Positions 1-13,760 of a DNA stretch of 64,000 bases are shown here, piece after piece. Within the stretch, counting starts at the first letter, position 1; each line of letters starts with the position of its first letter. The DNA comes from a virus. The notes below the pieces were generated by a model. It ran no database searches. It was not told the origin of the DNA and saw only the letters and a program-made list of their open reading frames with translations. Made by a program: the position numbers and the translations under genes. The DNA lies in the IMG/VR virus record IMGVR_UViG_3300043449_002191, positions 1 through 64,000 of that record. The stretch is one strand, 5' to 3'.

Positions 1-3000
1 ATGTTAGAAAAGCAATAGCTTCAAACCCAAACCTTGATCCTGTACATCATGCTAAACTAGTTAATGATGCAAAGCCTGATGTTAGAGAAGCAATAGCTGA
101 AAATCCATCTTACATAAAATGGTTAGAAAACCAAAAAAACGAATCTCTAATTAAAATGTCTAGACCTAAAATCACATTCCCTCAAATGGGAGTTGGAACT
201 AGACCCGACCAAGAAGTTCAGTTGGTAGAGACTCCTAGACAAAAGAAGCTTTTTGCTCGCAAAGTTGCTCAACAAAAAATACCAGACAAAGTAGCTACAA
301 CACTTACTGCGGATTATCAACCTAAAGAAGTAAAAGTTTCTATGCAGGCTTCTAGAGATAGAGAAACAAAGAAACTCGTAAACACCCTTTCCGGCAGGAC
401 TTTAGGACTAAGTGCTACTACGCCTACAAAACCTTTTTCAGTTACTTTAGCCGGAAAAGAGCGCTCTAAGTTCGAAGAAGGCGATGAAGAGTACAAAAAG
501 AAATTAAGTGAACATGAACAAAAAACAAAAGCACTAAAGTTAGGCTATAAGCAAGCGTTAGATGAATGGTGGAATAAAAAATATCAAGCAACCCTCAGAG
601 GCGACCCTGGCGCTCTTACAATAGAAGAGTTAAAAACAACAAAGCCTGTAGAGCCCAAATACCCCAGGAGACCGTCTAAAAAGAAAGTTGACACTAGCAA
701 ACTTTCACCTGAGAAAATTAAAGCCCGTGGCCAATCAGTTGATTCAACCATACATCATGAAGCTTTCCATGATAGTTTAGCTAGAATTAAAGCAAAACAC
801 GGACAAAAGGCTTATTCTGGAGTACTCCAAGGGCTTTTGAGTCATTATGACAAAGACACTCTTACTCATGTAGGCACATTTATAAGCAAAGTCCTTGGGT
901 ATAAACCTAGAACCCCATCCTTTTCAGAAGAACTTGTTACCCATAGCAGAGATATTTTAGCAAACGATGCTAAAAGAAAAAAGTTCGTAGAATTCATTAA
1001 AAAGATGAATCCTGAAAAAGGTGAAGAAAAAGCTAAAGAAGTTATCCAAAAAATGAAAAAAGGCCATCAAAAGGCTTATGAGTGGTCACAAAAATTAAAG
1101 CCAGAAGATGTATTAAAGTCTATACTTTTGTCGGATAATCTCAACAAAGCAGAAGACTTAGAAAAAGGTGCAGCTAGACGTTTATATGGAAAATTTAATC
1201 CACAAAAAGAGCTGGAAGAAACTGACAACGAAATGTCAGATTGGGTTACTGGAAATAGTGAATCCCGTGAAAAAATCCCAGATCCATCGCCAAACGCTAA
1301 ATTAAGGATGATGAATAAGCTTTCATCAAAAGCTCAAGTAAGAATTAATCCACAAACAAAACAAAGAGAGTTTTTACTGCACAGACAAATGTCTGATTAT
1401 GAATATGATGAAAACGCAAAAAATGGCAGAATAAATCATAATCCGTCAACTGATAACAGCGGCCACACCTCTTGGAGTTCAAACTTGGACAAAATTTACT
1501 CTGGAATATATTCCAGAGATTCTTTTGATAAAGATGACAACCAAAGTTATAATCATATAGTTTCTGCATGGATTCCAGAATCTCATATAAAAACTATACC
1601 CATTCAATACGGTGCTGCAGGAACTCAAAGTCGCAAAAAAGAAAACGGACCCCCAACAAGCACTTCTCAGAAAGAGCAAGAAGTTATCGTGAATCCAGGC
1701 CATAATTCTGAAATACATGAAGTATATAAAGATACTGGCGCAGATCCTGAAAACTGGAATTGGCAGAAAACTTTCCAAAAATCAGAATCATTAGAAAAAG
1801 GCTTAAAAGGCGATTGGCAAAAAGAAGGCTACACAATGCAGCATTCCCATAATTCTGATTTAAACCAACACAGAATTACAGCTTTTACCCCAAAAGGCGA
1901 TGTAGCTGGCTCATTTATATTTGAGCAAGGTCCAACTGGATTTATGGCTACATCTGCCCACGTAAAACCAGAGCATCAGCGAAAAGGTCTTGCCTCATCA
2001 GCTTACCAGCTATTTGAAAATAGATCTGGACAAAAGTTGATGCCTCATACAGGCAGATTTGGTGAAAGTAAACAGTCCCCAGATGCTGAAGCACTATGGG
2101 CTAATCCAAATAAAACTTTCGGTAAATCAGAAGATTTTGGAAAAAACAATTATTCTTTTGTTGGAACTTGTATAGATATTGGCAAAGAAAATCACCAATT
2201 AACTAATATTGGCGATGCATCTGATTGGGACAGAATGACGACAGAAGAATCTGTACCTATTTCAAAACAAAAATTTGAAAACTATACAGGTAAAAAATAT
2301 AAAAATGCTATATCTTTTGGAATACATCCAGAACATAAATTTATATGGGCAGAACTTCCACATTCAGATGGGGTTGGGACAGTACATCATTATTATTTTA
2401 AAAACTTCGGTAAATCAGAAGATTTAATTAAAACAGAAACAAAGATTAAACAGCTAGCAAATCAGTATGCTACCAATAAAGGCATGAAGTTAAGCCATAA
2501 CTACCAAGTCAATCTTAATCCAGATCACGGTAAAGCTGTAGCTCATGCTTACGACCAAATGAAGCATGACCCAGAACATCCAGAAACAAAAGCCGCATAT
2601 AATGCCCTTATCGGTGAAACTGGTGACCAATTCCAGCATCTAATGAATAGTGGGCTTAAAATATCTAGAATGCAGCCTGGGCAGGAAAATCCATACAAAT
2701 CTTCTAAAGATATGCTACATGACCTCCATGTAAATAATCATTTATGGTATTATCCTACTGAACAAGGATTTGGAGATAGTGAACAAGAAAAGGCGCACCC
2801 CATGCTCCAAACTACTAAATTCTCTGACAACAAAAACCCACTTTTAGCTAATGATATTTTTAGAATTGTCCATGACGCTTTTGGACATGGATTAACTAAT
2901 TCTACTTTTGGGCCTAAAGGCGAACACGCTAGTTATTTAGCGCATAAAGAAATGTTTAGCCCTCTAGCTCAAAAGGCACTAACTACTGAGACTTTAGGCC

Positions 3001-3128
3001 AGAACAGTTGGGTAAACTTTGGACCTAAAGGTGAACATAACAGGAAAAATCCTGAGCAAACGATTTTCGCAGAACAAAAAGCCGGACTTTTACCTGAATC
3101 TATTTTAAAAGGTAAATGGCATGAATAG
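1..3128 (+). CDS. Polyvalent-type multidomain virion protein (5' partial): zincin, ADP-ribosyltransferase-like, GNAT
   Basis: The reading frame is open from base 3 with no stop, so the gene runs off the left edge; the ATG at 156 is probably internal. Bases 3-110 encode VR-x-AIA-x-NP repeats like leucine-rich-variant/HEAT repeats. Next come a zinc-peptidase motif HEAFH (756-770); an ART-like domain at about 1370-1720, with an R in LHR, a TSWSS segment as the S-T-S element, and EQEVIVNPG as the E-x-E element; a GNAT-like acetyl-CoA loop QRKGLA (about 1978-1995); an unassigned domain (2150-2400); and a C-terminal domain with HDAFGH and GQNSWVNFGP that I associate with phage polyvalent proteins. 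K-S/A-E linkers separate the modules. Polyvalent proteins are known as multi-enzyme proteins delivered with mobile DNA. Virion packaging and injection, as for T4 Alt, is inferred. Catalytic activity is unproven. Confidence 0.75.
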   Translation, partial: VRKAIASNPNLDPVHHAKLVNDAKPDVREAIAENPSYIKWLENQKNESLIKMSRPKITFPQMGVGTRPDQEVQLVETPRQKKLFARKVAQQKIPDKVATTLTADYQPKEVKVSMQASRDRETKKLVNTLSGRTLGLSATTPTKPFSVTLAGKERSKFEEGDEEYKKKLSEHEQKTKALKLGYKQALDEWWNKKYQATLRGDPGALTIEELKTTKPVEPKYPRRPSKKKVDTSKLSPEKIKARGQSVDSTIHHEAFHDSLARIKAKHGQKAYSGVLQGLLSHYDKDTLTHVGTFISKVLGYKPRTPSFSEELVTHSRDILANDAKRKKFVEFIKKMNPEKGEEKAKEVIQKMKKGHQKAYEWSQKLKPEDVLKSILLSDNLNKAEDLEKGAARRLYGKFNPQKELEETDNEMSDWVTGNSESREKIPDPSPNAKLRMMNKLSSKAQVRINPQTKQREFLLHRQMSDYEYDENAKNGRINHNPSTDNSGHTSWSSNLDKIYSGIYSRDSFDKDDNQSYNHIVSAWIPESHIKTIPIQYGAAGTQSRKKENGPPTSTSQKEQEVIVNPGHNSEIHEVYKDTGADPENWNWQKTFQKSESLEKGLKGDWQKEGYTMQHSHNSDLNQHRITAFTPKGDVAGSFIFEQGPTGFMATSAHVKPEHQRKGLASSAYQLFENRSGQKLMPHTGRFGESKQSPDAEALWANPNKTFGKSEDFGKNNYSFVGTCIDIGKENHQLTNIGDASDWDRMTTEESVPISKQKFENYTGKKYKNAISFGIHPEHKFIWAELPHSDGVGTVHHYYFKNFGKSEDLIKTETKIKQLANQYATNKGMKLSHNYQVNLNPDHGKAVAHAYDQMKHDPEHPETKAAYNALIGETGDQFQHLMNSGLKISRMQPGQENPYKSSKDMLHDLHVNNHLWYYPTEQGFGDSEQEKAHPMLQTTKFSDNKNPLLANDIFRIVHDAFGHGLTNSTFGPKGEHASYLAHKEMFSPLAQKALTTETLGQNSWVNFGPKGEHNRKNPEQTIFAEQKAGLLPESILKGKWHE

Positions 3129-3675
3129 GCATAAAAGGTCTACCGAAGAGTATAAAAAAGAATTAAACCAAATGAATAGCGATCACACCTTATCTAAAGC
3201 GGCCCCTGATTATAAGACTCAGGCCAGCTCAGGAGTAATTGCTTACTATCCAGTTTCATTTCGTGGCAAAAAGCTTTCTGATGAAGGTGTCCCGTTCCAC
3301 ATGACTGTAAAATTTTTTGGACATAAAGACTCCCTAGATCTTAATGATGTTAAGCAAAGAGTGGAAAAACACAGAGCATTACTGTCCCAGCCTGTAGATG
3401 AAAAAGATATAATGGCTATTCCTCACAAGTTTAAAACTCAGACAGGCATCACTCATCACGTTTTATTGTTACATGGTGTTCCAGACCATGTTAAGCAAGT
3501 ATATGAAAACAATAAGGATATTGGAGCTACTTATAAAAGTTTTGCCCCACATATCACTGTTTCTGAAGAAATCTATAACCAATTAAACGGTAAACCAGCC
3601 AGAGCTACAGACTTAGGTATTAAGTTTCATCCTGCTGAGTTCAAGGTAGGCGACCAAGTACATAAGACTTTTTAG
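3121..3675 (+). CDS. 2H phosphoesterase-like protein
   Basis: This 184-residue protein has two H-x-T motifs about 80 residues apart (FHMTVKFFG and APHITVS), the signature of the 2H phosphoesterase superfamily (LigT, 2',3'-cyclic phosphodiesterases, phage T4 57B/Acb1). The active site would be formed by the two His/Thr pairs. The ATG overlaps the end of the preceding polyvalent gene by 8 bases, so the two are translationally coupled and probably co-packaged or co-expressed. Phage 2H enzymes include Acb1, which cleaves the cyclic nucleotides of CBASS immunity. Its use here against host nucleotide second messengers is inference; RNA-end or ADP-ribose 1'',2''-cyclic phosphate processing are alternatives. 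Confidence 0.72.
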   Translation: MNRHKRSTEEYKKELNQMNSDHTLSKAAPDYKTQASSGVIAYYPVSFRGKKLSDEGVPFHMTVKFFGHKDSLDLNDVKQRVEKHRALLSQPVDEKDIMAIPHKFKTQTGITHHVLLLHGVPDHVKQVYENNKDIGATYKSFAPHITVSEEIYNQLNGKPARATDLGIKFHPAEFKVGDQVHKTF

Positions 3676-3711: not shown

Positions 3712-6700
3712 ATGGCTGAGCGTAAAGAAGAAAAGAAGATTTCTATTCCTAAAAAAGAATTAGTCCAGGAACACAAGCATTTAGTTAGTGTCCTTGAATC
3801 CCCTTCTCATAAAGATGATATTGCAGAAGCTACAAAGCAACGTAAAGAATTAAAGGGATATACTAAAAAAGCAGACCCACTTGCATCAGAACTTACATCT
3901 GAAAAAGGTGTTTCAGAATCTGGCATTGAAGCAAGAAGAGCCGACCCAAAACAAAAAGGTCTAGTGTCACATGGATATGCTAGAATTACTTCACCAGAAA
4001 AGCATGGCGAAAGAGCTAAAAACTATTTCAGGCAGACGTTAAATAAACTTAAAGCTCAAGCTAAGCCAAATCTCCCTAAATCTGAAGAAGCCATGGAAAA
4101 GTCTACAGCCCTAGAAAGATACCTTAAAGCAAAAGGTAAAAGTAAATGGGAAGCGAGAGCTAAAAGATCAGCAGGTACTCCAAAAGGTGTTCATACCCCC
4201 ACAAAAGTTAAAGGTGGAAATAGTGAAGCTGGTGATTTTGCTATAGGAAGAAAAGTTCCAGCAAACGATTACGATTTTTCTCCAAACAGAACAGCCGGAA
4301 AAGAAAAAGCAAGATCTTTACACGCAAACAAATTAAAAGAACTTCGCAATATGCCTAAGCCAAATCTACCTAAATCTGAATATGAAGATATTGATAATGA
4401 TGGCAAGAATGATGCACAAGAATCTCATGGCCAGATTAATAGAAAAAAAGCTGATTTAAATCAAGATGGCAAAATTACTCACAAAGAAGCTGTAAAAGCA
4501 TCTAGCATGAAAAAAGAAGAGCTAGACAAAAAAGATAGATGCTGGGATGGATATAAACCAGTCCCTGGTAAAAAGCCGTATGAAAAAGGTTCTTGCGCCC
4601 CAATTGAAAAGTCAGAAGAAGTTCCATGCACCTGTGGAGCTGAAGATATCAAAAAAGACGAAAAGCCTTTTCATGGGTACAATAAAGAAAAGCATTCAAA
4701 GTCTGGCGGATTAAATGATAAATACCGTAAAAAGTATAATCGTGAAACTGGCTCTAATTTACAACGTCCAAGTAAAGATAAAGACAATTCTAGGCATAAA
4801 TCATTTTGTGCAAGAATGTCTGGAGTAAAAGGTCCAACTTCAAAAGAAGGAAAACTTACCCCTAAAGGCGCAGCTTTAAAAAGATGGAATTGCTCTAAAA
4901 ACGATGACGCTAAAAATCTTACTAAAGATGAATCAGCAGCAACTGCCGTTGCACCAAAAATCTGGTCTATTAAGCATCAGCCAACAGAACAGGGCGGTTT
5001 TGTACATTTTTCTCATCCACAACACGGAACTGTAACAATTAAGAAAAACCCAAGACCTGGACTTGCTACTGAAAACCCGTATGTTGCTGTTCACAATGGA
5101 GCCCCTGTTGGTAGATATAAGGATATCCATACTGCGGTCCATGGTGTAAAAAATTATGTTAGTACTTTGGGTAAACAGACTAATACTAGAATGATTAACA
5201 GACCAGTTGCAAAATCTGAATATTTTAAGCTTAAGCTTGAATCATTAAAAAAAGCTGGGTGGGGATTTGGACTTGGCGGAACTTGGGGATTTCACACTAT
5301 TAATAATGATGAAAGCTCTAATAGATTTGGTAAAGATGATCAAGACCCTAAAGTTTGGCCAGAAGATCACCCAGACTACCGTCATCATTCAAAAAACGCA
5401 ACTCCATATACAGGAGCTGGAGTAACTCGTAATAGTCGTGGCGGAGCTAGCGTTTCAGTTGGTAGTAGAGGTCATTATATTGATGCAGATCAAGTTCCGC
5501 ATATAATTAACGCTCTTACTAGAGGTAAAAAGGCAACAGTAGAATCTAAAGGTTTTGGAAGAAAAGCTGAATACGGGCCAGAGCATCTTGAAGAGTTTAA
5601 GAAAGTTTTTTCTAAAAAGACAGAAGGCTTAGGTAAATCAGAAAAGCTAAAAAAAGATGAAGGCAGTTCATCTTATGTAGATGGCTATTTAAATAAGATG
5701 GACAAATCCCTAAAGACTTTTCTTTTACACAAAGACCGAAATGTTGATTCTATAGTTAATTCTGCATTAAATAAAGGGCAAAAAGAAAAAGCTTTACATA
5801 AATTAAAATCTCAAGAAAAATATTTAAGACGAGGATATGAATTTTCAAAATTTGTTAAAGATTCTAAAAATTCTCAAACGGGTCCTCAAATTAAAACTGG
5901 AACTTTAAGTGGAGCAAAATATAAAGATCGCCCAATTCCAAAATTCGGTATTGTCGCTGGCCATACTTGCCCACAAAAAGGTAATTGTTTTGGTACTTGT
6001 TATGCATTGCAAGGCCAATATGATATGAATAAAAATCTTATTACAAATAATGTCAATAATTGGGCTGCAGCAGAGAGAGATGATTTTGTACCTAAAATGT
6101 CAGAACATATTAGCAAAACTGTTCACCCAGGCTCTCTTTTTAGAATTCATGATTCTGGAGATTTTTATAGTCAAGATTACCTAGACAAATGGAGAGATAT
6201 CGCAAAAAACCATCCAGATAAAACCTTTTATGCATATACTAAATCATTAAATTTAAACTTTGATGATATCGATAAGCTTCCAAATTTTAAGATAATTAGA
6301 TCTATTGGAGGTCAGCAAGATGATAAGATTGACCCAAGTAAGCCCCATGCTGTAATTTTTCCTAATATAGAAGAGCTGCACAAGAACGGATACACCTATG
6401 TTGGCGATAACGATGCTTTAGCCGCAGATCCAAATGTCACAAAAATAGGACTAGTCCATCACGGTACTAAAGGTAGAGATTTTCATCCAAATATTTATTC
6501 ACATTTAGGGATAAATCTAGCTGATACAAAAGTTAGAAAAGCCCCTAAAGCAGATAAAAAACCTAAATTAAAACAAGAGTCTAGTCCAAGTTTTGATGTT
6601 AAACTCATTAAAAATGAAATAGCTAATAACCAAGAAAGTTTATCTGGACATACTTTAGACCAGCCAGATTTAATGAATAGACTTATGGATGATTATAAAT

Positions 6701-6750
6701 TGAATAATTATTTTAAAGCTAAATTGGCTAAAAACCCTAATCTTAAGTAG
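3712..6750 (+). CDS. Polyvalent-type modular protein with EF-hand, Cys-rich and GP88-like domains
   Basis: A 1012-residue, Lys-rich modular protein. Two EF-hand/dockerin-like Ca loops lie near residues 226 and 248 (DIDNDGKND, DLNQDGKIT). A short RCWDGY...GSC module is near 276. A Cys/Arg module at about 318-395 (GGL...NRETGSNL...SFCARMSG...RWNC) resembles one I know from uncharacterised phage structural proteins. From about residue 745 to 940 there is a GP88-like domain ('gene product 88' of mycobacteriophages and plasmids) with clustered cysteines (CPQKGNCFGTC), then RIHDSGDFYS and YAYTKS. Five K-S-E linkers separate segments. RBS GGGGAG precedes the ATG and a CCTAATCTT motif lies just upstream. 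It is probably a structural or packaged head protein; no enzymatic role is established. Confidence 0.65.
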   Translation: MAERKEEKKISIPKKELVQEHKHLVSVLESPSHKDDIAEATKQRKELKGYTKKADPLASELTSEKGVSESGIEARRADPKQKGLVSHGYARITSPEKHGERAKNYFRQTLNKLKAQAKPNLPKSEEAMEKSTALERYLKAKGKSKWEARAKRSAGTPKGVHTPTKVKGGNSEAGDFAIGRKVPANDYDFSPNRTAGKEKARSLHANKLKELRNMPKPNLPKSEYEDIDNDGKNDAQESHGQINRKKADLNQDGKITHKEAVKASSMKKEELDKKDRCWDGYKPVPGKKPYEKGSCAPIEKSEEVPCTCGAEDIKKDEKPFHGYNKEKHSKSGGLNDKYRKKYNRETGSNLQRPSKDKDNSRHKSFCARMSGVKGPTSKEGKLTPKGAALKRWNCSKNDDAKNLTKDESAATAVAPKIWSIKHQPTEQGGFVHFSHPQHGTVTIKKNPRPGLATENPYVAVHNGAPVGRYKDIHTAVHGVKNYVSTLGKQTNTRMINRPVAKSEYFKLKLESLKKAGWGFGLGGTWGFHTINNDESSNRFGKDDQDPKVWPEDHPDYRHHSKNATPYTGAGVTRNSRGGASVSVGSRGHYIDADQVPHIINALTRGKKATVESKGFGRKAEYGPEHLEEFKKVFSKKTEGLGKSEKLKKDEGSSSYVDGYLNKMDKSLKTFLLHKDRNVDSIVNSALNKGQKEKALHKLKSQEKYLRRGYEFSKFVKDSKNSQTGPQIKTGTLSGAKYKDRPIPKFGIVAGHTCPQKGNCFGTCYALQGQYDMNKNLITNNVNNWAAAERDDFVPKMSEHISKTVHPGSLFRIHDSGDFYSQDYLDKWRDIAKNHPDKTFYAYTKSLNLNFDDIDKLPNFKIIRSIGGQQDDKIDPSKPHAVIFPNIEELHKNGYTYVGDNDALAADPNVTKIGLVHHGTKGRDFHPNIYSHLGINLADTKVRKAPKADKKPKLKQESSPSFDVKLIKNEIANNQESLSGHTLDQPDLMNRLMDDYKLNNYFKAKLAKNPNLK
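6736..6744 (+). promoter_or_regulatory. Late motif CCTAATCTT
   Basis: The motif sits inside the last codons of the preceding gene (encoding P-N-L) and ends 22 bases before the next ATG at 6767. Confidence 0.6.
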
Positions 6751-10925: not shown

Positions 10926-13760
10926 ATGACGATATTAAGCGGATTAAGTGCTTTAGAAAAAGGTCAACAAGGTACAGCTACTTTAGATAAGGCTGGACTA
11001 TTTGCCTTAGCTCCAATAGCTGCTGACCCATATTTTTCTGTACAATCAAACGTAGATAAAGCTTTATTTTTCTATAAAGCTACAAATTCTACCCAAAAAG
11101 AAATTCTGATTTTTGACTTAAGCCAAGCTCAACCAGAGGCTATAGCTAGTTTTTCAGAAACGGCACTAAATGATTGGGAAATTGAAAAAATTATTTTAAC
11201 TGATTTTGACGGCGGATCTTTTATTGTACAAAATGGTGATTTACCGACAGACATACAAATTCAATTACCTAACTTAGTGACATTTACTGAAACAATTTCT
11301 GGCGTATCTAAAATTAATGCTGTAGTAAGAACATCAGCAATCCAATCAGATGGTAAGATTTTATTGGGTGGAGATTTTACAAATTATGGAGGCACAATAG
11401 GCAGAAATAAGCTTATTAGATTAAATGCTGACGGTACATTAGATACAGCATTTTGTGTAAACGCTGTTGATGGATATAAATTTAGCAATATAGTTTGGGC
11501 AATAGCAGTTCAATCAGATGGTAAGATTCTTGTTGGTGGAGATTTTACAAATTATGGATTCACATCAGGTAGAGGCAGGCTTATTAGATTAAATGCTGAC
11601 GGTACATTAGATTTAGATACAAGTACTCCTAATGGTCAGCATTTTCATACTAATGCAGTTGATGCAACCAAGTTTAACAATACAGTTTACTCAATAGCAG
11701 TCCAGTCAGACGGTAAGATTCTAGTAGGCGGAAACTTTTCAAACTATGCAGGTACAACAAATAGAAATAGGCTTATTAGATTAAATGCCCATGGTACATT
11801 AGATTTAGATACAAATACCCCTAATACTGCACATTTTCATACTAATGCAGTTGATGCAGCTAAGTTTAGCAATACAGTCTGGACAATAGCAGTCCAATCA
11901 GATGGTAAGATTCTAGTAGGCGGAAGCTTTTCAAACTATGCAGGTACAACAAATAGAAGCTATTTAATTAGATTAAATGCCCATGGTACATTAGATTTAG
12001 ATACAAATACCCCTAATACTGCACATTTTCATACTAATGCAGTTGATGCAGCTAAGTTTAACAATACAGTTTACTCAATAGCAGTTCAATCAGACGGTAA
12101 AATTCTTGTTGGTGGAGATTTTTCAAGTTATGCAAGTACATCAGGTAGAAATAGACTTGTTAGATTAAATGCTCATGGTACACTAGACACATCATTTTGT
12201 GCTAATGCATCTGATTCGTTTAAAATTAATAATATAGTTTTCTCAATAGCAGTCCAATCAGATGGTAAGATTCTAGTAGGCGGAGACTTCACTAATTATT
12301 CTTTTGTATCAAACAGAAATAGACTAATTAAATTAAATGCCGATGGAAGCTTAAATACTGCATTTTGTGCTAATGCATCTGATGGAGATAAATTTAATGC
12401 CATAGTTTATTCAATAAAGGTTCGATCAGATGACAGTTTGGCAGTAAGCGGATTTTTTAATGGCGGCTACGATAAAAATACTCGCTTTACAATAATTAAT
12501 TCTGACGGAACATTTAATCAAACGACTTTAGAAATATCGGGAATTGGAGCTAAAGTTCCAGTTGGTACAATTTTGGCAATAGCAGTACAGTCAGACGGTA
12601 AGATTCTAGTAGGCGGAGCATTTCAACGATATGGGGGAGTATTAAACAGAAACTATTTAGTTAGATTAAATGCTGATGGTACATTAGATACAGCATTTTG
12701 CACTAATGCAGTTGATGGAGCCAAGTTTAGCAATACAGTCTGGGCAATAGCAGTCCAGTCAGACGGTAAGATTCTAGTAGGTGGATCATTTACAAGTTAT
12801 GGTACGGCAGGTAGAAACTATTTAATTAGGTTAAACTCCACTGGAACTTTAGATTTAGATACAAGTACTCCTAATAGTCAGCATTTTCATACTAATGCAG
12901 TTGATGGAGCCAAGTTTAACAATACAGTTTACTCAATAGCAGTCCAGTCAGACGGTAAGATTCTAGTAGGTGGAGATTTTATAAATTATGCAGGTACAAC
13001 AAATAGAAATAGGCTTATTAGATTAAATGCTCACGGTACATTAGATTTAGATACAAATACTTCTAATAGTCAGCATTTTCATACTAATGCAGTTGATGCA
13101 ACCAAGTTTAACAATACAGTTTACTCAATAGCAGTCCAATCAGATGGTAAGATTCTTGTTGGTGGAGCCTTTTCAAGTTATGCAGGTACAACAAATAGAA
13201 GCTATTTAATTAGATTAAATGCTCACGGTACATTAGATTTAGATACAAGTACTCCTAATAGTCAGCATTTTCATACTAATGCAGTTGATGCAGCTAAGTT
13301 TGGTGCAATAATTAGGACTGTATACGTACAGTCTGATGGAACAATTCTAGTAGGTGGAGACTTTTTTCATTATGGAGGCACAACAGGTAGAAGTAAGGTT
13401 GTTAAATTAAATGCTCACGGTACACTAGACACATCATTTTGTGCTAATGCAGTTGATGGATCTAAATTAAATGGAAGTATCTATATAGCTAAACCACAAT
13501 TAGATGGCAAAATTTTAATAGGTGGAGGGCTTATAAATTATGCAGGCGTAACAGGTAGAAACTACTTAGTTCGATTAAATGCTGATGGTACATTAGACAC
13601 AGCATTTTGCACTAGTGCAATTGATGTAGGAAAATTTAACAATCCGCCTTATACAGCAGTTGATCAATTAGATGGCAAATTGTTTATAGGTGGAGAATTT
13701 ACCACTTATGCAGGTAAATACGATAGATTAATCGTATTAAAAAATGGTCAAATATTTTAA
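10926..13760 (+). CDS. Delta-60-type repeat protein with virion-docking N-terminal domain
   Basis: A 944-residue protein. Residues 1 to about 117 are a paralogue of the small proteins encoded on either side. From about residue 135 to the end there are 14 repeats of 50-66 residues with the core AVQSDGKILVGG-x-F-x-x-Y, then R-L-x-RLNADGTLDT-x-F, matching the delta-60 repeat family of predicted beta-propeller blades. The seventh repeat is degenerate (KVRSDDSLAVSG), splitting the array in half. Several repeats carry an extra segment with HFHTNAVD. It is likely a surface-exposed adhesion or receptor-binding protein anchored by its N-terminal domain. RBS CGAGGA precedes the ATG. Confidence 0.7.
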   Translation: MTILSGLSALEKGQQGTATLDKAGLFALAPIAADPYFSVQSNVDKALFFYKATNSTQKEILIFDLSQAQPEAIASFSETALNDWEIEKIILTDFDGGSFIVQNGDLPTDIQIQLPNLVTFTETISGVSKINAVVRTSAIQSDGKILLGGDFTNYGGTIGRNKLIRLNADGTLDTAFCVNAVDGYKFSNIVWAIAVQSDGKILVGGDFTNYGFTSGRGRLIRLNADGTLDLDTSTPNGQHFHTNAVDATKFNNTVYSIAVQSDGKILVGGNFSNYAGTTNRNRLIRLNAHGTLDLDTNTPNTAHFHTNAVDAAKFSNTVWTIAVQSDGKILVGGSFSNYAGTTNRSYLIRLNAHGTLDLDTNTPNTAHFHTNAVDAAKFNNTVYSIAVQSDGKILVGGDFSSYASTSGRNRLVRLNAHGTLDTSFCANASDSFKINNIVFSIAVQSDGKILVGGDFTNYSFVSNRNRLIKLNADGSLNTAFCANASDGDKFNAIVYSIKVRSDDSLAVSGFFNGGYDKNTRFTIINSDGTFNQTTLEISGIGAKVPVGTILAIAVQSDGKILVGGAFQRYGGVLNRNYLVRLNADGTLDTAFCTNAVDGAKFSNTVWAIAVQSDGKILVGGSFTSYGTAGRNYLIRLNSTGTLDLDTSTPNSQHFHTNAVDGAKFNNTVYSIAVQSDGKILVGGDFINYAGTTNRNRLIRLNAHGTLDLDTNTSNSQHFHTNAVDATKFNNTVYSIAVQSDGKILVGGAFSSYAGTTNRSYLIRLNAHGTLDLDTSTPNSQHFHTNAVDAAKFGAIIRTVYVQSDGTILVGGDFFHYGGTTGRSKVVKLNAHGTLDTSFCANAVDGSKLNGSIYIAKPQLDGKILIGGGLINYAGVTGRNYLVRLNADGTLDTAFCTSAIDVGKFNNPPYTAVDQLDGKLFIGGEFTTYAGKYDRLIVLKNGQIF
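11330..13757 (+). repeat. Coding tandem array of 14 delta-60-type repeats
   Basis: The repeat core (CAATCAGATGGTAAGATT and close variants) recurs at intervals of roughly 150-200 bases. Repeats 3, 4, 10 and 11 are nearly identical at DNA level, which indicates recent duplication or homogenisation. Confidence 0.85.

Follow-up and report, generated by a model that had tools for sequence, protein, structure and literature searches.

Layout of the gene

The window analysed here covers the opening 64 kb of a virus record of 157,341 bp and starts inside a gene. A single open frame (3..3128, + strand, 1041 aa) has no 5' end inside the window, the actual gene being larger than had been described. The last 68 bases of the record are identical to its first 68, an exact overlap through which the record self-closes with the same frame across the junction; the full gene starts at record position 155335 and its full-length product has 1,688 aa. 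Since the junction sits within a 78-bp tandem array, the true repeat number is uncertain, and the copy number of the 26-aa repeats may be collapsed because the overlap falls in the repeat. From the N to the C terminus, the chain consists of a Nudix domain, an unknown domain, about ten LRV-like repeats, a zincin-like region, an ADP-ribosyltransferase (ART), a GNAT module, an orphan domain and a domain that we call HDAFGH. The features are (window positions unless marked as record positions):

record 155335-157341, across the contig junction: 5' part of the gene (Nudix, unknown domain, LRV-like repeats)
3..3128, +: 3' part of the 1,688-aa polyvalent protein gene (ORF and junction analysis)
3..137, +: final copies of the 26-aa LRV-like repeat (NPNLDPVHHAKLVND...)
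135..1115, +: zincin-like metallopeptidase region (conserved motifs; fold not confirmed)
756-770, +: HEAFH
927-953, +: EELVTHSRD
1146..1169, +: linker motif variant KAEDLEKG, ahead of the ART
1170..1742, +: ADP-ribosyltransferase, R-S-E type (motifs, conservation, fold match)
1779..1787, +: KSE junction FQKSESLEKG, between ART and GNAT
1797..2123, +: GNAT acetyltransferase module (paralogue homology, motif A)
1974-1994, +: GNAT motif A, HQRKGLA
2124..2132, +: KSE junction FGKSEDFGK, after the GNAT
2145..2411, +: orphan domain, ~90 aa (no relatives found)
2412..2420, +: KSE junction FGKSEDLIK, ahead of HDAFGH
2421..3125, +: HDAFGH domain, phrog_3170 (profile match, alignment, model)
3712..6750, +: modular neighbour (GP88, DUF6321) whose segments have five KSE motifs between them

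All the motifs that the preliminary description had placed in one chain were found in ORF 3..3128. They are not chance occurrences, as their residues are conserved in homologue alignments of the zincin, ART, GNAT and C-terminal domains. A scan of viral contigs with the whole protein found no relative, its patterns having fallen in variable stretches; domain-by-domain scans of viral contigs (HDAFGH, zincin, ART and GNAT) did yield relatives. The window part had no match among PDB sequences, and tblastn of the zincin, ART and orphan segments against isolated phages found no relative.

Several enzyme domains are joined in one chain

The Nudix domain at the N terminus of the full chain (PF00293, E 1.9e-13) lies outside the window, and hence could not be seen from the window alone; this part matches one PADLOC candidate family, PDC-S07. 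The ~250-aa unknown domain that follows also occurs in Salicola phage SCTP-2 (E 4e-30). The LRV match of the 26-aa repeats was below the cut-off, but the repeats themselves are present at the truncated start, as had been described.

The proposal of a HEAFH zinc peptidase stands for the motif and remains without a confirming fold match. In an alignment of seven sequences (identity down to ~32%), 7/7 homologues retain HExxH together with the downstream E and H-x-RD, with a single Q/E change beside the invariant Glu (frame residue 310). The AlphaFold model places HExxH and this Glu in two helices (192-222 and 263-276), the second of which bears the downstream motif E-x3-H-x-RD, and has a helix and a two-stranded hairpin ahead of the HExxH helix. 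The metallopeptidases (MPTases) of polyvalent proteins are described as carrying HExxH and the Glu in two helices (PMC5512222), as our model does; a three-stranded sheet core would complete the zincin-like fold. No zincin fold was among the matches listed for the region, which were coiled coils only, so that the fold is neither confirmed nor excluded.

Support is broader for the ART, whose R/S-x-S/E-x-E set had been read from the sequence: R is 1383 (in LLHR, 1374-1385), S is 1470 (in HTSWS, 1464-1478), and ExE lies at 1674-1682 (in EQEV, 1674-1685). R is kept in 22/22 aligned rows, S in 20/22 and the W of the S-W motif in 22/22, while ExE is kept in all 14 rows that reach that part of the alignment. 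With VIA-align, the segment matches Tpt1 (Z 6.9, 3.3 A over 98 residues) and TreTu (Z 6.6); other matches to the segment (model residues 373-536) are mostly ART-fold proteins, including other toxins, so that the model matches this fold almost exclusively here. Support for the fold is moderate, because Z stays below 8.

The GNAT-type loop could be substantiated in two ways. Motif A (Q/R-x-x-G-x-A) is kept in 7/7 homologues, with R, K, G and A invariant, and the module is 43% identical to one in a neighbouring 860-aa protein that is itself recognised as GNAT by Pfam (this paralogue and one relative match PF00583). In one GNAT family of Iyer et al., the domain typically neighbours an ART in the same chain (PMC5512222). 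Overall, the Nudix, ART and GNAT calls in the 1,688-aa chain are well supported.

The gene belongs to a modular head region

Placement beside modular head-region genes had also been proposed, and the neighbourhood bears it out: the head module contains a maturation protease (phrog_1028), the MCP (phrog_752) and a tail sheath protein (phrog_279), and several neighbours carry GNAT or kinase domains. The protease (record 123467-125173, L009:1968-3674) is fused to a PI3/4-kinase-like domain and has relatives in 5/6 related records. Modules are shuffled among neighbouring head genes, and among relatives too, which is new as far as we could find.

Other features of this region deserve mention in their own right. 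The 860-aa neighbour (record 144917-147499, L005:5918-8500) joins a PI3/4-kinase-like domain to its GNAT module and also has KSE linkers. The N terminus of the MCP (record 133932-135320) and the phrog_1028 protease have in common a ~25-aa motif, KTL-x-AG-x-x-NVAPSQLV-x-G-x-AL, which is also found in relatives and may serve in delivery or cleavage. Besides the phrog_1028 protease, the head module encodes two ClpP-like homologues of head maturation proteases (record 141635-142246 and 142807-143574). The next gene (window 3121-3675) has weak 2H-phosphoesterase matches, all below cut-offs (Acb1 anti-CBASS, E 0.012; LigT, E 0.064), and a tail-region protein (window 10926-13760) is built of repeats, VQSDGKILVGGDF...RLNADGTLD.

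The chain meets the multi-enzyme criterion for a polyvalent protein, with Nudix, ART, GNAT, zincin-like motifs and HDAFGH in one product. The polyvalent-type reading is therefore supported at the level of sequence, by the union of unrelated enzyme domains and by the location among late virion genes. One could argue instead that the segments are structural, non-enzymatic domains of the head or neck whose motifs are coincidental, given that some neighbours are structural and that a relative in Rhodococcus phage E3, gp205, is labelled as such. We give this next to no credence in view of the conserved catalytic residues and the ART fold, the Pfam-level homology of the GNAT and Nudix domains, and the metabolic operons, described below, in which bacteria carry HDAFGH as a solo gene.

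A KSE/ASE motif marks the boundaries between modules

The motif found between modules is hydrophobic-x-[KA]-S-E, often followed by L-x-K-G. The head-module ORFs of the window phage contain 17 occurrences of [LFIM].KSE against 1.7 expected from shuffles, and its non-structural genes contain 1 against 1.8 expected. We surveyed 138 non-redundant phage ORFs bearing domains of the analysed chain and counted 71 sites at domain boundaries (3.2 expected), 3 in domain cores and 60 elsewhere (22 expected), the density being ~65 times higher at boundaries than in cores. Four control motifs gave 1 to 6 boundary sites, for 1.6 to 2.3 expected. The number of boundary sites overstates that of independent events, because sites are partly inherited among homologous modules. 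The proteins encoded upstream of the MCP in five phages, which we take to be the scaffolds, also carry 3-6 KSE each, compared to 0.3-0.9 expected, and at one locus (L025) two tandem GNATs have a single KSE junction in common.

Known prohead proteases cleave C-terminal to Glu at (S/A/G)-X-E (PMC5694885). ASE fits such a small-X-E site, while KSE mismatches it at P3. The excess of sites at boundaries and in scaffolds, the protease encoded by the phage and the known cuts after Glu make cleavage likely, though unproven, and hydrophobic-x-(K/A)-S-E is probably the site of the maturation protease. This rule is new as far as we could find; cleavage itself is inferred, without proteomics.

The main rival to cleavage is that the linkers stay uncut and act as capsid-targeting or scaffold-binding peptides that load module-bearing proteins into the prohead, the domains being released only in the host by the protein's own zincin. 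The presence of the motif in scaffold proteins would suit a targeting tag, the frequent trailing L-x-K-G looks like a short helix, and self-processing by the MPTase was proposed by Iyer et al. (PMC5512222). Yet the motifs lie between modules and not solely at termini, and the single KSE between tandem GNATs suits a cut site better, which leaves targeting an unlikely explanation, if one that cannot be dismissed.

We favour cleavage, and likely have here a polyvalent virion protein that is cut into separate effectors. The protein would be made together with the head proteins and packed into the prohead, where the head maturation protease, perhaps aided by the protein's own zincin domain, would cut after glutamate at the hydrophobic-x-(K/A)-S-E linkers. 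The freed effectors (Nudix, ART, GNAT and the putative HDAFGH enzyme) would then enter the host with the DNA. Architecture, active-site residues of the ART, GNAT and zincin, ART fold, head location, linker placement and module shuffling were computed; packaging, cleavage, injection and anti-host action are inferences. If correct, this gives a simple, testable rule by which one long virion protein yields many injected enzymes through (K/A)SE cuts between modules.

HDAFGH is a widespread and strictly conserved family

The C-terminal domain contains both signatures that had been singled out, NDIFRIVHDAFGH at 2850-2888 and TTETLGQNSWVNFGP from 2982. Its sole profile match is phrog_3170 (E 7.4e-18 over residues 819-1005), and ten residues are invariant across 113 aligned sequences (frame numbering: N950, R954, H957, D958, H962, G973, E974, H981, E996 and Q1000). 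From the conserved His, His, Glu, His and Glu we predict that HDAFGH is most likely a metal-dependent enzyme, the ligands being inferred from conservation only.

Relatives of HDAFGH matched no Pfam or NCBIfam model, the domain matched none of the Pfam LPD families, and its profile gave only weak matches to PDB sequences (best E 0.17). The AlphaFold model is very confident (pLDDT 95.5, pTM 0.92), but in the PDB Foldseek found nothing significant (best E 1.3), nor did VIA-align give a match with a Z of at least 2. In BFVD, the model matches phage proteins named polyvalent, ART-PolyVal, NAT or head-morphogenesis, plus small stand-alone phage proteins. The family is new as far as we could find; identity with an unnamed LPD domain of Iyer et al. 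is not excluded.

At least 587 phage stretches (587/600 candidates) encode a relative, and 48 of the best 80 relatives lie in ORFs of at least 1000 aa. The unrelated Rhodococcus phage E3 has HDAFGH in gp205, annotated 'structural protein'. The adjoining gp206 (L003:8259-9518), annotated 'putative aminotransferase', looks by eye like GNAT plus ART, and has weak GNAT Pfam matches. The description of the domain as phage-specific has to be relaxed: it is enriched in phages, as its membership in phrog_3170 indicates, and is not exclusive to them, since solo genes occur on bacterial chromosomes.

Among the BFVD matches, ORF7 (gp7) of phage LKA1 (Foldseek E 0.045) carries N-x-x-FR-x-x-HD-x-GH, an E and DT-x-x-Q. 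Its family reaches an hhalign probability of 87.5% with the HDAFGH profile, compared to 0.2-9.4% for three unrelated controls, over an alignment that spans only the 24-residue motif region. We take the LKA1 gp7 family to be a distant relative of HDAFGH. In phi15 the gp7-like gene comes second, within the early region that precedes the RNA polymerase, and many other T7-like Pseudomonas phages have similar genes close to a record end. The signature was seen in LKA1 gp7 family genes at L262:3662-4228 and in 123 phage records.

Bacterial operons hint at a possible role in the SAM/SAH cycle

In a genome collection, 110 stretches encode an HDAFGH relative. Twelve of 54 short-ORF loci are compact operons that include an adenosylhomocysteinase (SAHH)-like protein, mostly alongside DUF3293; they come from Bacteroidota and from Gamma- and Alphaproteobacteria. 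Another 14 of the 54 place HDAFGH with SufS-like and cystathionine-gamma-synthase (CGS)-like genes, often adding a homocysteine S-methyltransferase, a methyltransferase and SAHH; these are found in actinobacteria, Paraburkholderia and one gammaproteobacterium. SAH-linked enzymes are therefore common to both operon types, which suggests that HDAFGH acts on a compound of the SAM cycle, a view based on operon context and not on substrate evidence. HDAFGH forms a conserved bacterial cluster (L159, L164, L129, L133, L139, L128) with genes for SufS-like and CGS-like proteins, a homocysteine methyltransferase, a methyltransferase and SAHH. PADLOC assigned no defence family to HDAFGH or its operon partners, and no SAHH, SufS or CGS genes were among the phage neighbours of HDAFGH that we examined.

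An enzyme of the SAM/SAH/homocysteine cycle could alter the host pool of SAM or SAH and, like the T3 SAMase, blunt SAM-dependent restriction or signalling, whether delivered with the DNA or made from an early gene. By inference, such a counter-restriction role would go well with an early gene and with a protein packaged together with the DNA. Both operon types speak for this possibility, as do the early position of the distant LKA1 gp7 family in T7-like phages and the fact that phages are known to use SAM lyases against host defences (PMC7877911). But the case is one of context only, the SufS/CGS-type cluster may merely support methylation in a biosynthetic pathway, and other solo HDAFGH genes (several in Micromonospora, and in Microbacterium) have no SAM-cycle neighbours. 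We hold it as a tentative idea, compatible with cleavage of the polyvalent protein into effectors.

A relationship to biopterin-dependent aromatic amino acid hydroxylases, with their HDxFGH ... TxE iron site, was considered because of the likeness of the motifs. hhalign does pair HD-x-FGH with hydroxylases from bacterial genomes that carry HDAFGH loci, but with a probability of only 24%, and none of these enzymes is among the Foldseek or VIA matches of the very confident model. This identity is not supported, and we regard it as very improbable.

Taken at its widest, the SAM-cycle idea would make HDAFGH a new enzyme family, possibly with a new fold, acting on a SAM-cycle metabolite and common to phage virion effectors, T7-like early genes and bacterial SAM/SAH-cycle operons. 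As a counter-defence it would be delivered before expression, and the cut of its carrier at (K/A)SE would free it. We consider so complete a scenario unlikely, though not ruled out. Irrespective of it, HDAFGH is a widespread family whose strictly conserved residues probably bind metal, whose confident model has no solved relative that we could detect, and whose operons offer clues to the chemistry involved.

Comparison with known systems

The T3 and Svi3-3 SAM lyases counteract restriction by removing its cofactor (PMC7877911). HDAFGH would work alike if it acts on SAM; however, we found no match in fold or sequence to these lyases, and the activity of HDAFGH is unknown. The domain belongs to phrog_3170, for which PHROGs gives no function, and we found no earlier link from this family to bacterial solo forms or to T7-like early relatives.

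T4 Alt and internal proteins, as well as head proteins of phiKZ and SPN3US, are packaged in the head and processed after Glu by the prohead protease (PMC5694885). The ASE form fits the A-X-E of these systems; in contrast to them, cuts in the chain described here would part entire enzyme modules from one another, and the usual form of the site is KSE.

Phages and conjugative elements are already known to encode polyvalent proteins, in which zincin, ART, GNAT and other enzyme domains are joined among late virion genes (Iyer et al. 2017, PMC5512222). The protein described here has the same one-chain union of zincin, ART and GNAT and the same late virion gene location, while its 1,688-aa chain adds a Nudix domain, LRV-like repeats, HDAFGH and conserved [KA]SE linkers. 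As far as we could find, the HDAFGH family and the linker rule are what is new.
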